This document shows positions 3,213-28,637 of a stretch of 35,497 bases of DNA, one piece after another. Where the stretch lies: assembly GCA_021783235.1 (NCBI GenBank), contig JAJXUD010000049.1:1-35497 (forward strand), read 5' to 3'. The position numbers and the translations under genes were made by a program. Origin of the DNA: Myxococcales bacterium. Its GTDB lineage: Bacteria; Myxococcota; Myxococcia; Myxococcales; JAKAPL01. The notes beneath the pieces were generated by a model that was given only the letters and a program-made list of their open reading frames with translations, was not told where the DNA came from and ran no database searches. Position 1 is the stretch's first letter; every line of letters begins with the position of its first letter.

Positions 3213-4882
3213 CGCGAGATCCGGAGCTTCTTGATCCGGACGAGGACGAAGTACCAGGTGGCGACGGAGCCGAAGAGCATCGCGGCGAGGGCGATGGCGA
3301 TGACGGCGACGATGGGCACGCCGTGGAAGCTCCACGGCTCGCGCGCGAGGCTGATGACGGCGCCGACCACGAGCGAGGAGCCGAGCATGCCGACGAGCAG
3401 CACCACCGAGACGCGGCGCAAGGCGTCGGTCAGATCCTCGAACGGTCGTCCCTGCACGTTGACCGCGAACTTCCCGCCCTCGAGATCGAGCAGGATCTGC
3501 GAGAGCTGCGTCGGCAGATCCTGAGCCATCTCCTGCAGCCGCAGGACTCCCTTGAGGAGCCCGCCCTGGAGCGAGGCCGGGGAGAGCCCGCCGAACAGCA
3601 GCTGCCGCACGTACGGCATGGTGGTCGCGCCGATGTCGAGATCCGGGTCGAGCTGCCGCAGGACGCCCTCGGCCGACACCGAGGCGCGCGAGAGGAGGGC
3701 GTAGTCCTTGGGGATCCGGATCCGGTAGCGGACGGCGAGGTCCAGGAGATCGCGCAAGAGGCTGCTCGCCTCCACGTTCTTGAGGCTCTTGACCCGGTAG
3801 CGCGAGAGCAGCGCGGCGATGTCGCCGCGAAAGGCCGCGAGGTTCGTGCGCGCGTCCGGGATACCCACTCGGTAGAGGAGGCGGGCCACGGTGTCGGCGT
3901 CGCCGATCGCCACCGCGACGGTGAGCATCACGAGCGTCTGCTGCATCTCGGGGCTCAGCCGCCCGACGAGGCCGAAGTCGATGATCGCGGTCCGGCCGTC
4001 CGGCAGGTAGAGGAGGTTCCCCGGGTGCGGGTCGCCATGGAAGAGGCCGTCGTCGAAGAGCTGGTGGAAGCTCTCCTCGACCACCCGCTGGGCGAGCAGC
4101 TTGCGCGTCTCGGGCTCCTCGACGTCCGTGATCTTGATGCCCTGGAGGTAGGACATCGTCAGCACCGAGCGGGCGGAGAGCTCGTCGAAGACCTTCGGGA
4201 TGACGATGGCCGGGCGGCCCTCGTTCTTCTGCGCGAACTCGCGGATGTTCTTCGCCTCGTTCTCGAAGTCGAGCTCCTCGTGGATGGCGCGGTCGAACTC
4301 CTCGACGATGCCCGAGGGCGTGTAGACGCCCACCTCCTCCACCACCGCCTCGAGCGCCCGGGCGAGGTAGTCGAGCAGGTCGAGGTCGGTCTCGATCTTC
4401 CGCTCGATGTCGGGCCGCTGGACCTTCACCACCACCTCGTCGCCCCCCTTCGTGCGGGCGCGGTGGACCTGGGCGATCGAGGCCGAGGCGAGCGGCGTGG
4501 GATCGATCCAGGCGAAGGCCTCGTCCGCCGGCCTGCGGAGCGCCCGCTCGATCTGCGCTCGGACGGTCTCGAGCGGAATCGGCGGGGCCGCGTCCTGCAG
4601 GCCGCGCAGCTCGTCGACGACCTCGGCGGGGAGCAGGTCGGCGCGCGTCGAGAGCACCTGGCCGAGCTTGATGAAGGTGGGGCCGAGGTCCGAGAGCAGC
4701 TCGCGGAAGCGGCGCGCCGTCGAGAGCCGCCGCAGCTCCTCCGGCGAGGGGGCCTCGCCCTCGGGCAGGGGGACCTTGTCGCGCAGCCGCGAGCGGGCGA
4801 GCAGCTCGCCGAAGCCGTGGCGCACGACGATGGCGGAGATCTGCCGCAGCCGGGCGAGATCCTGGAAGGCTTCGCGGAGCAT
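3185..4882 (-). CDS. ubiB: UbiB/ABC1/ADCK-family atypical kinase
   Basis: A 565-residue member of the UbiB family of protein-kinase-like ATPases, needed for ubiquinone biosynthesis or lipid homeostasis at membranes. It shows the family-specific KLGQ motif (72-75), the Ala-rich loop ASASIAQVHRA (132-142) replacing the Gly-rich loop, the ATP-binding Lys in VVKVQRP (153), the catalytic segment FHGDPHPGN (281-289) and the metal-binding DFG (302-304). Two C-terminal transmembrane helices (about 491-511 and 522-548) anchor it. There is no Shine-Dalgarno before the ATG; a TAGCTT element ends nine bases upstream, suggesting a leaderless or very short-leader mRNA. It is the first gene of the operon with the Mla-type transporter, which links it by position to lipid transport. 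Length and motif order are typical. Confidence 0.93.
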   Translation of the reverse strand: MLREAFQDLARLRQISAIVVRHGFGELLARSRLRDKVPLPEGEAPSPEELRRLSTARRFRELLSDLGPTFIKLGQVLSTRADLLPAEVVDELRGLQDAAPPIPLETVRAQIERALRRPADEAFAWIDPTPLASASIAQVHRARTKGGDEVVVKVQRPDIERKIETDLDLLDYLARALEAVVEEVGVYTPSGIVEEFDRAIHEELDFENEAKNIREFAQKNEGRPAIVIPKVFDELSARSVLTMSYLQGIKITDVEEPETRKLLAQRVVEESFHQLFDDGLFHGDPHPGNLLYLPDGRTAIIDFGLVGRLSPEMQQTLVMLTVAVAIGDADTVARLLYRVGIPDARTNLAAFRGDIAALLSRYRVKSLKNVEASSLLRDLLDLAVRYRIRIPKDYALLSRASVSAEGVLRQLDPDLDIGATTMPYVRQLLFGGLSPASLQGGLLKGVLRLQEMAQDLPTQLSQILLDLEGGKFAVNVQGRPFEDLTDALRRVSVVLLVGMLGSSLVVGAVISLAREPWSFHGVPIVAVIAIALAAMLFGSVATWYFVLVRIKKLRISRWLPRRSSR

Positions 4883-23359: not shown

Positions 23360-23384
23360 CGGGCGGGCCGGCAGGGACTGTCAG

Positions 23385-23409
23385 GACCCACACATTTTCT
23401 TTGTGGGTC
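23385..23409. terminator. Hairpin with AT-rich loop after lhr
   Basis: GACCCACA (23385-23392) and TGTGGGTC (23402-23409) form a perfect eight-base stem with a nine-base loop rich in T, strikingly AT-rich for this genome. It lies 26 bases after the lhr stop. No T tract follows on either strand. It may end lhr transcription, or be a dyad operator for the downstream kinase operon. Confidence 0.4.
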
Positions 23410-23524
23410 AAGGCAACCGTCCCGCCAGGGCTTGCGCCCCGGTAGACCCGCAAGGTATCAACGGTGAACCTCCCAATGGCCACCGACTCGAAGCCCGGAA
23501 CCCAACGCTCGACCGGGCCCGTTC

Positions 23525-25749
<2,225 letters not shown>

Positions 25750-25753
<4 letters not shown>

Positions 25754-26196
25754 GCAAGGCACCGGCCGCGATCGAGGCGGCCGAGGCCAACGGCGGCCCC
25801 CGCGCGACTCCGCTGATCCTCCTCGTCGACGACTTCGTGGACAACCGCGAGATGTACGCCGAGTACCTCGCCTTCTCGGGCTTTCAGGTCGCCGAGGCCG
25901 CGGACGGCCACGAGGCGCTCGCCAAGGCCTTCGAGCTCCTGCCCGACATCATCCTGATGGACCTCTCGCTCCCCGGCATGGACGGCTGGGAGGCGACGCG
26001 GCGGCTGAAGCAGGACGAGCGCACCCGCGGGATCCCGGTCATCGCCGTCACGGGCCACGTCCTCGACGGCCACGCCGAGGGCGCGCGCGGGGTCGGCTGC
26101 GACGGCTTCGTCGCGAAGCCCTGCCTGCCCGAGGCGCTGGTCGCCGAGGTGCGCCGCATGCTGGAGCGGAGCCGCTCTGGCCGTGGAGGGCGCTGA
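25750..26196 (+). CDS. Single-domain response regulator (CheY-like)
   Basis: A 148-residue receiver domain only. It has the acidic pair in LVDDFVDN (Asp27, Asp28), phospho-acceptor Asp71 in IILMDLSLPGMDGWE, Thr101 in VIAVTGH and Lys123 in FVAKPC. A 20-residue N-terminal tail precedes the domain and no output domain follows. It likely works by protein contact or in a phosphorelay with the kinase upstream, with which it overlaps by four bases. Confidence 0.92.
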
Positions 26197-26199
26197 GCC

Positions 26200-27063
26200 A
26201 TGGAGACCGGGCAGCGCCGGCGAGAGCAGCGAGCGGCCGTCGGCGAGTTGACCTATCTCTACTGCCTCGTGCGCGGCCCGAAGCCCAAGATCGGCCGTCT
26301 TCCGCCGGGCCTGCCCGGCGCGTCGCCCGTTCGCCTCCTCGAGGTCGAGGCTCGGCCCTCCGCCGGGCCGGGGCTCTGGCTCGTCGTGTGCGGCGTTCCG
26401 CCGAGCCGCTACGACGGGCTCCGACTCGCTCGGGCCATGAAGGATCTGCGCTGGGTCTCGAGCTGCGCGGTCGCCCACGAGGAGCTGGTCGACCGGATCG
26501 GTCGGCTCGGCCCCACCCTGCCATTGAAGCGCTTCACGATCTTCCGGGACGACGCGCACGCCGTCGCCCACGCGCGCGGCGAGCGGGCACGCCTCGGGCG
26601 GCTCTTCGATCGGCTCGCCGGCCGCAAGGAGTTCGGACTCCGCGTCGAGCTCGACGAGGGGCGCGCTCGCGCTTCGCTGGTGCGGCGCATCGCGCGGGCG
26701 GGCGAGCCGGGACGCGGCGCCGCCGGGCTTCGCCAGCGGCAGCGCGAGTGGTCGGCCGCCCGGGAGCTCTCGGGCCGGGCGAGGGGCGTGGCCGCGAAGC
26801 TCTACGACACGCTCGCCGCCAAGGCCGAGCAGGCGCGCCGCCGGGGGGAGGTCGGGGGCGTCCCCGAAGCGCGGCTCCTCCTCGACGCGCTCTTCCTCGT
26901 GGCCGAGAAGCGGAGCGCCGGCTTCGCGAAGGCGGTGGACGGCGCGACCCGCCGACTCGCGGCCGACGGCCTCGACGTCTCGCTCACCGGCCCCGCGTCG
27001 CCCTACCACTTCATCGAGGACGAGGCTGCGCCGCGCGATCTCGATGGCCAAGCTCCCTCGTAG
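26200..27063 (+). CDS. Orphan GvpL/GvpF-family protein
   Basis: A 287-residue protein with the layout of GvpF/GvpL gas-vesicle proteins: an N-terminal beta segment LTYLYCLVRG, a middle segment RIGRLGPTLPLKRFTIFRDD with RKEFGLRVELD (about 144-154), a helical region (about 170-250), and the closing LDVSLTGPASPYHFIEDE typical of the family (LTGP.PPY.F). GvpF/L proteins are minor shell or assembly factors. No GvpA, GvpN or other gas-vesicle gene is visible in the window. It starts with ATG three bases after the response-regulator stop, so it appears co-transcribed with the two-component pair. The function without vesicles is unknown. Confidence 0.72.
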   Translation: METGQRRREQRAAVGELTYLYCLVRGPKPKIGRLPPGLPGASPVRLLEVEARPSAGPGLWLVVCGVPPSRYDGLRLARAMKDLRWVSSCAVAHEELVDRIGRLGPTLPLKRFTIFRDDAHAVAHARGERARLGRLFDRLAGRKEFGLRVELDEGRARASLVRRIARAGEPGRGAAGLRQRQREWSAARELSGRARGVAAKLYDTLAAKAEQARRRGEVGGVPEARLLLDALFLVAEKRSAGFAKAVDGATRRLAADGLDVSLTGPASPYHFIEDEAAPRDLDGQAPS

Positions 27064-27086: not shown

Positions 27087-28637
27087 ATGGCCGGCGGCGA
27101 CCTCGGGGCGTACGGGCGCAAGCGCCGCTTCGGCCGGACGCCCGAGCCGGCGCCGCTCCGGGAGGCGCCTGCTCGGACGGCCGCGGAGCGCCGCTTCGTC
27201 GTCCACAAGCACCACGCCCGGCGGCTCCACTACGACCTGCGACTCGAGTTCGACGGCGCGCTCGCCTCCTGGGCCGTCCCGAAGGGCCCCTCCTACGACC
27301 CCGCGGTGAAGCGGCTCGCGGTGCAGACCGAGGACCACCCGCTCGAGTACGCCTCTTTCGAGGGGAGGATCCCGGAGGGCGAGTACGGCGGAGGCGACTC
27401 GCTCGTCTGGGACCGCGGCAGCTGGAGCGCGGTGCCGCCCGAGGAGGCCGATCGGCAGCGCGAGCGCGGCCACCTCCTCGTCGAGCTGCACGGGGAGAAG
27501 CTCCACGGCCGCTGGCACCTCGTCCGGACCGGCCGCGGCGACGGTGGCCGGAGCTGGCTCCTCTTCAAGGCGAAGGACGAGGCCGCCGACCCCGCCTTCG
27601 ACGTCGTCGCGGAGCGGCCGGAGAGCGTCCTGACCGGCCGGCGGCTGACGCGGGGGCCGGAGCGGCGGGCGGTCCTGCGGGCGAGCCACCCGGCGCCGCG
27701 GCGGCTCCTCGAGCGCGTCTGGCCGCCGATGCTGGCGACGCTCGTGGAGCGCTTGCCGGGCGACGCCTCCCGCTGGCAGTACGAGCTCAAGCTGGACGGC
27801 TTCCGGGCGCTGGCCGGCCTCTCGGGAGGGCGCGTCGCGCTCTGGAGCCGCAACGGCCTCGACCTCGCCGAGCGCTTCCCCGGGATCGCGCGGGCGCTCG
27901 AGGGCGTGGTCGTCGGCGAGGCGGTCGTCGACGGCGAGATCGCGGCGATCGGCCGCGACGGCGCCCCTCGCTTCGAGCTCTTGCAGCGCGGCGAGGCGCC
28001 GCCCGTCTTCTTCGCCTTCGACCTCCTCTGGCTCGACGGGGAGGACCTTCGCCGCCGGCCACTCCGCGAGCGGCGCGAGCTGCTCGAGAGCCTCCTCGCG
28101 AATGCGCCCGAGGGGGTGAGGCTCTGCGAGATCGTCGGCGCCCCCGCGGAGCGGGCGCTCGAGATCGCGCGCGACGAAGGCCAGGAGGGGATCGTCGCGA
28201 AGGATCGGGCGTCGCCCTATGTGGGGACGCGATCGACCGCGTGGCAGAAGCGAAAGCTGGTGCGGTCGCAGGAGGCGGTCGTCGTCGGGATGACCCCGAG
28301 CGCGAGCGGTCGCGCCGAGATCGGGGCGCTCCTCGTCGCGGTGGCCGAGGAGGGCGGCTTCCGGTACGCGGGCAAGGTCGGCACGGGCTTCAGCGAGCAA
28401 GAGCGGCGAGCGCTCTGGGAGGGGCTCTTGCCGGCGGTGGTCGACTCGCCGACGGCGCGCGACGCGCCGCGGCTGCGGGGCGCGCGCTGGCTTCTGCCGG
28501 CGGCGGTCTGCGAGGTCCGCTTCGCCGAGTGGACGCGGGACGGCCGGATGCGCCACCCGAGCTTCCTCGGGCTGCGGCCGGACGAGGCGCCCGAGGAGTG
28601 CGTGCGCGAGCGGCCGGCGGCGGGGGAGGCTCGCTGA
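27087..28637 (+). CDS. ligD: LigD-type phosphoesterase-DNA ligase (no polymerase domain)
   Basis: 516 residues. An N-terminal 3'-phosphoesterase domain (about 35-165) shows KHHARRLHYDLRLE with His42, His48, Asp50 and Arg52, and EDHPLEYASFEG with His84 and Tyr88; these match the positions of the known Pseudomonas LigD catalytic residues. A C-terminal ATP-dependent ligase domain (about 205-500) has the nucleotidyl Lys235 in YELKLDGFR, VVDGEIAAI and GIVAKD. The primase-polymerase domain of full LigD is absent. No Ku gene is visible here. It may join breaks with another polymerase or act as a repair ligase. The start at 27087 follows GGAGGGG; a much longer upstream frame overlaps other genes and is rejected. 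Confidence 0.9.
   Translation: MAGGDLGAYGRKRRFGRTPEPAPLREAPARTAAERRFVVHKHHARRLHYDLRLEFDGALASWAVPKGPSYDPAVKRLAVQTEDHPLEYASFEGRIPEGEYGGGDSLVWDRGSWSAVPPEEADRQRERGHLLVELHGEKLHGRWHLVRTGRGDGGRSWLLFKAKDEAADPAFDVVAERPESVLTGRRLTRGPERRAVLRASHPAPRRLLERVWPPMLATLVERLPGDASRWQYELKLDGFRALAGLSGGRVALWSRNGLDLAERFPGIARALEGVVVGEAVVDGEIAAIGRDGAPRFELLQRGEAPPVFFAFDLLWLDGEDLRRRPLRERRELLESLLANAPEGVRLCEIVGAPAERALEIARDEGQEGIVAKDRASPYVGTRSTAWQKRKLVRSQEAVVVGMTPSASGRAEIGALLVAVAEEGGFRYAGKVGTGFSEQERRALWEGLLPAVVDSPTARDAPRLRGARWLLPAAVCEVRFAEWTRDGRMRHPSFLGLRPDEAPEECVRERPAAGEAR

Follow-up and report, generated by a model that had tools for sequence, protein, structure and literature searches.

Introduction

Gas vesicles are organelles known for providing buoyancy, and a histidine kinase (HK) paired with a CheY-like regulator and a downstream effector is a generally known arrangement. 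Of the gas-vesicle systems closest to the locus considered here, GvpF of Anabaena PCC7120 and Microcystis has been solved structurally (PDB 6l5d, 4qsg), and ArsA homologues with two domains have been described from gvp clusters (PMC2963123). In Halobacterium salinarum, GvpF is reported to be the sole GvpA partner among eight accessory proteins tested; a GvpA fragment of residues 1-22, the first helix, suffices for GvpF binding and gives the strongest signal, and residues R15, K19, G20, D24, R28 and E40 matter (PMC7688916).

Here we consider a 35,497-nucleotide stretch of DNA from a Myxococcales bacterium (the window), in which a gvpF-type gene directly follows the genes of a two-component pair. 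Numbers preceded by G, L and f denote the genomes, loci and families of our survey, and the labels gvpA1, gvpA2, gvpJ and gvpF1-F3 were assigned by Pfam family and position. The features of the locus are as follows:

23360..23524, + strand: gap between the lhr helicase gene and the kinase gene; no gvpA or derivative in the three frames read
23525..25753, + strand: HK, 742 aa, with two PAS regions, HisKA and HATPase_c (Pfam)
25750..26196, + strand: single-domain CheY-like response regulator (RR), 148 aa, without an output domain (Pfam PF00072)
26200..27063, + strand: gvpF2-type GvpF/L gene, 287 aa, ATG start (Pfam, tree, conservation, AlphaFold model and structure match)
27087..28637, + strand: ligD, with phosphoesterase and ligase domains (Pfam), a neighbour outside the module

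The HK and RR genes overlap by 4 bases. The RR gene ends 3 bases before gvpF2, and 23 bases separate the gvpF2 stop from the ligD start (27087), in agreement with the layout given in a preliminary description of this DNA. That description spoke of a GAF/PAS kinase; the PAS part stands, and Pfam found no GAF domain in the window kinase at E 0.1. HisKA and HATPase domains in the HK and a receiver domain in the RR are those of a two-component pair. Like other HK-CheY pairs with a downstream effector, the window operon combines a PAS kinase with a receiver-only regulator; unlike the usual pairs, its partner is a gas-vesicle assembly protein.

A diverged GvpF of the F2 subfamily

The window gene encodes a GvpF/L protein with the GvpF fold. 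PF06386 (GvpL_GvpF) matches residues 18-272 at E 1.8e-37 and 130.2 bits (cut-off 23.6), and since the match to the NCBIfam GvpL equivalog NF045778 is weak (44.5 bits, under the 200-bit cut-off), we assign the protein to the GvpF/L family and not to the equivalog. An AlphaFold model built with 34 relatives reached a pLDDT of 88.8. Foldseek with this model retrieved 6l5d (E 2e-11) and 4qsg (E 5.5e-11), and structure comparison gave Z scores of 18.4 and 16.9, respectively, over 231-236 aligned residues, so that the comparison with GvpF proposed in the preliminary description gave a match; matches other than GvpF (Z <8) were common ferredoxin-like arrangements and were left aside. A profile search against the PDB clearly matched 6l5d (E 2.6e-11), whereas phmmer with the single window protein gave a weak match (6l5d, E 1.7). 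The window protein thus has its whole fold in common with the GvpF of Anabaena PCC7120 and Microcystis, but it is only 14-16% identical to them and its genome has no vesicle wall gene.

A tree of 73 GvpF/L proteins resolved F1, F2 and F3 as one clade each (support 96, 98 and 99), and the window protein fell within F2 (SH-aLRT 98); this tree and the kinase tree used below are of the 'quick' type, and the window and G002 are long-branched. In a scan of named genomes, of which the best 80 among 419 confirmed places were kept, the nearest GvpF2 is 45% identical to the window protein, and no close relative of the window module turned up.

How should this divergence be read? One answer, which we consider rather unlikely, is that the operon is a decaying remnant: the vesicles were lost, the HK and RR have another job or none, and gvpF2 has simply not yet been deleted. 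In favour of decay, the window protein keeps 30 of 37 near-invariant columns, the second lowest count among 35 sequences, and the C-terminal GPWP hallmark, present in all 34 others of the alignment, has become GPAS (W266A, P267S), a departure from its own subfamily that sets it apart from the solved GvpF systems (6l5d, 4qsg), GPWP being a habit of F2 in this alignment and not a published criterion. The window branch is also long (0.94), but so are other F2 branches (0.07-1.48). G001, a member of the window's family, gave no match to PF06386, PF00741 or the kinase under the limits applied, so that the module is dispensable there, and gvpF1 is decaying in G036. Against decay stand the intact 287-codon frame, the 3-base spacing behind the RR gene, a GC3 of 0.91 compared with 0.95 in the two operon neighbours, the retention of the predicted GvpF fold and the selection acting on a parallel module in the Myxococcaceae, described below.

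Remainder of a gas-vesicle cluster with its own two-component pair

The window genome (4.58 Mb, 133 contigs, 97.45% complete) contains no PF06386 match other than the window gene, which agrees with the earlier view of an orphan GvpF/L protein. A genome search for gvpA and gvpJ, suggested at the same time, was negative: PF00741 (GvpA, GvpJ and kin) had no match there, the same search being positive in 31 of the 145 genomes of the order, and a GvpA protein query found nothing up to E 10. Queries with GvpK, ArsA and GvpF3 found nothing within the window. The genome thus lacks the GvpA-family shell gene by which a gas-vesicle cluster is recognised, and on present evidence the window gene does not belong to any functioning gas-vesicle system.

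From where, then, did this gene come? We searched for orthologues of the window HK across the order (145 genomes) and the phylum (195 genomes). At the limit of E 1e-120 or better, 61 of the 195 phylum genomes had one, all of them in the window's order. Every one of these 61 genomes holds a PF06386 gene, which in 60 shares the contig of the kinase at a distance of no more than about 1 kb (compared by eye); in G114 the two genes are both at contig ends. The neighbourhood of kinase, regulator and GvpF/L is therefore more strongly conserved than the preliminary description had guessed. Full-length orthologues are 48-58% identical to the window HK, with E as low as 1e-220; the window HK is the orthologue both of the kinase found in HK-type gvp clusters and of that in the Myxococcaceae module. 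RR orthologues are 60-74% identical and immediately follow the kinase in relatives.

In families f1 (G002), f5 and f8, the clusters have the order gvpA2-gvpA1-HK-RR-gvpF1-arsA-gvpF2-gvpJ-gvpF3-gvpK; this and our other gene orders are based on tblastn (with Pfam of one cluster), a simple gene caller overlooking short or overlapping genes, and arsA had no match in the G002 cluster. The HK-RR cluster type, present in Myxococcota, extends further: among the 80 best-scoring places kept from the scan of named genomes, the identical order was found in records of Rokubacteria, Acidobacteria and Planctomycetota. The clusters have the two-domain ArsA (PF02374) like those of PMC2963123, which is not known to describe HK or RR genes; relative to those ArsA-bearing clusters, the window has lost arsA.

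Several further observations concern this cluster type. The HK-RR pair lies between gvpA and gvpF in L099, L103, L107, L110, L111, L113-L118, L120 and others, from several phyla. L108 (Rokubacteria), with HK-RR-arsA-gvpF2, one gvpA2 match and no gvpF1 or gvpA1 match, is another partly reduced cluster. This kinase is missing from the gvp clusters examined in G018 (f6) and G056 (f4). In f8 genomes and in records that match them, a different ATP-dependent DNA ligase (DNA_ligase_A_N/M/C) lies next to the cluster and converges on gvpK (L041, L042, L045, L046, L053, L099, L101, L105, L110, L122 and L168).

The window gene is almost certainly the gvpF2 of an HK-RR-type gvp cluster. Kinase and regulator belong to this cluster type as regular components, so that the window holds its remainder. 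The window retains HK, RR and F2; gone are F1 and arsA, which in clusters lie between RR and F2, and the flanking genes on both sides, and the position 5′ of the kinase that in clusters and Myxococcaceae modules holds gvpA or a derivative is the gap listed above. The window lineage would thus have lost gvpA, gvpJ, gvpF1, arsA, gvpF3 and gvpK, with HK-RR-gvpF2 staying behind as one tight operon. The association of kinase and regulator with GvpF/L, noted in the preliminary description, stands; that they are new partners of a stray Gvp protein does not. The kinase tree joins the window to G002, which is of the same family and has a full cluster, at a support of 82, which is not strong.

The full cluster in G002 and the draft state of the window genome (133 contigs, 97.45% complete) give some room to the idea that the organism makes vesicles and that the rest of its cluster, in unassembled sequence, uses the window protein. 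We consider this very unlikely, and reject gas vesicles in this organism, given the absence of a PF00741 or second PF06386 match and the replacement, in one contig, of the normal junctions gvpA-HK, RR-gvpF1 and F2-gvpJ by lhr, RR-F2 and ligD.

The position of ligD, on the same strand after a gap of only 23 bases, might suggest that the window gene belongs to a DNA-repair operon, and the preliminary description placed the two side by side. A link between them is unsupported, and such an operon is hardly credible: none of the four Myxococcaceae module loci L049-L052 has a LigD match, and the ligase near some f8 clusters is of a different kind, with another domain make-up and a convergent orientation, matching the window LigD at just 31-36%. 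We therefore reject a LigD partnership and regard LigD, in which Pfam found no polymerase domain, as an unrelated neighbour of the window module. Four lhr loci in relatives had no HK, RR, GvpF or LigD alongside, and G001 and G002 had no lhr match at 1e-50.

A vesicle-free module in the Myxococcaceae

Family f4, which we take as the Myxococcaceae, presumably with the common laboratory myxobacteria among its members, holds 53 of the 61 kinases. The G099 kinase belongs to a cluster; each of the remaining 52 lies apart from any gvp cluster, together with a short GvpA-derived protein, the RR and gvpF1, the last beside the RR in 51 of the 52 modules (G114 included, although split). PF00741 is absent from 39 of the 53 genomes; the 14 with a match include G099 and G095, and of the two matches in G095 one is to the small GvpA-derived protein itself. 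In L215 (G036), gvpF1 is broken at 3458-3807, and the genes for the small GvpA, HK and RR look intact.

The small open reading frame (ORF) directly 5′ of the kinase encodes 63-77 aa in the first 41 loci read (L049-L052, L060-L070, L072 and L074-L098), and its start, MPVER..SLVDVLDRVLDRG, resembles that of the cluster gvpA1, MPVER..SLIDVLDRVLDKG. With the further intact ORFs of L215, L216 and L218-L224, it is intact in 50 of 50 readable loci; in the other two of the 52 (L073 and L225), the contig ends before the ORF. A GvpA query independently found the small ORF before the kinase in 10 f4 genomes (E 3e-11 to 1e-4); in G124 it lies on another contig. Among five small proteins searched with PF00741, four scored 15.7-20.0 bits over positions 1-14, under the cut-off of 25, and the fifth, that of L083 (G095), passed with 29.8 bits over positions 1-26 of 39; judged by its sequence, it looks like an intermediate form. 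Mean hydropathy of residues 24-50 is -0.10 over 41 small proteins, compared with 1.54 in one cluster gvpA1 (L045), which indicates loss of the strands that form the wall. The second half of the small protein diverges more in L097 and L219 than in other loci.

The four module genes in the Myxococcaceae are under purifying selection. A plain Nei-Gojobori count, pooled over 20 pairs drawn without overlap from these 41 loci and rough in its absolute values for such GC-rich genes, gave dN/dS values of 0.46 for the small GvpA protein (bootstrap 0.39-0.55), 0.25 for HK, 0.14 for RR and 0.41 for gvpF1, compared with 0.84-2.7 for a shifted-frame control on the same genes. Single-pair values scatter; for the small protein, two exceeded 1 and one was undefined. 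By part, the small protein gave 0.22 for residues 1-27, 0.68 for the middle and 0.45 for the end.

We placed the positions of H. salinarum GvpA on the small protein by spacing. So placed, R15 and G20 are kept in 41 of 41 small proteins and D24 as D or E in 38 of 41; the K19 position is R in 31 and Q in 10, R28 is kept in 14 of 41 and G33 in 3 of 41. Because the first helix, R15 and G20 are kept and residues 1-27 have a dN/dS of 0.22, the most strongly selected part of the small protein would correspond to the GvpF-binding part reported for another organism, H. salinarum (PMC7688916). The small protein resembles H. salinarum GvpA in keeping the first helix as the reported GvpF contact and differs from it in having no wall-forming strands and in being coupled to an HK and RR, whereas the window, compared with the H. 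salinarum GvpA-GvpF pair, is without any GvpA derivative.

Two reductions and a proposed function

Did the window and the Myxococcaceae module arise by the same reduction? First, the kinases of the vesicle-free f4 modules (13 in the kinase tree) form one clade with a support of 100, and a clade forced to contain these and the window kinase is rejected (AU p 0.0015). Second, the GvpF paralogue retained is F2 in the window and F1 in f4. The two reductions therefore look independent, and the repeated retention of this HK-RR pair beside a GvpF protein speaks for an HK-RR-GvpF link that functions.

On the basis of gene order, we propose a functional link between RR and GvpF. The HK, with its PAS part as the sensor of a signal, would phosphorylate the receiver-only RR, and as this regulator has no output domain, its operon partner GvpF, which binds clients and acts in scaffolding during vesicle assembly, would be the natural output. 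In full clusters, HK-RR-GvpF would time vesicle assembly; in the Myxococcaceae, the kinase may control whether GvpF holds or releases the small GvpA-derived ligand, a general scheme suggested by the module under selection there. We infer that the window operon is still used and that its regulator acts on GvpF; the reading that this HK-RR-gvpF2 remnant of a gvp cluster now works without vesicles, with GvpF as partner or output of the regulator, has in our judgement about an even chance of being right. A repurposed function, as suggested in the preliminary description, is likely for the Myxococcaceae set, where selection and a conserved, altered GvpA support a turn to signalling; for the window operon it is possible, with decay as the main rival. 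We suggest more tentatively, at slightly less than even chances, that vesicle parts have turned at least twice into vesicle-free two-component modules: in the Myxococcaceae, the GvpA helix may have become a GvpF ligand or adaptor under a PAS kinase and a receiver, and in the window the same HK-RR would work with another GvpF paralogue and no GvpA part.

In the titles and abstract openings from one open-licence library, we found no description of HK-RR genes in gvp clusters or of a vesicle-free GvpF module. Such genes would mean that some of these clusters are wired to a phosphorelay. If the proposal is true, this conserved, selected and vesicle-free set is a clear case of an organelle toolkit reused for signalling, and the module may account for GvpF/L annotations in bacteria without vesicles. 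A minor observation concerns seven further kinase matches in f4, for five of which no PF06386 match is listed in the genome: these kinases reach 61-65% identity, confined to the C-terminal 270 residues, and they occur in G030, G068, G070, G071, G089, G090 and G130.
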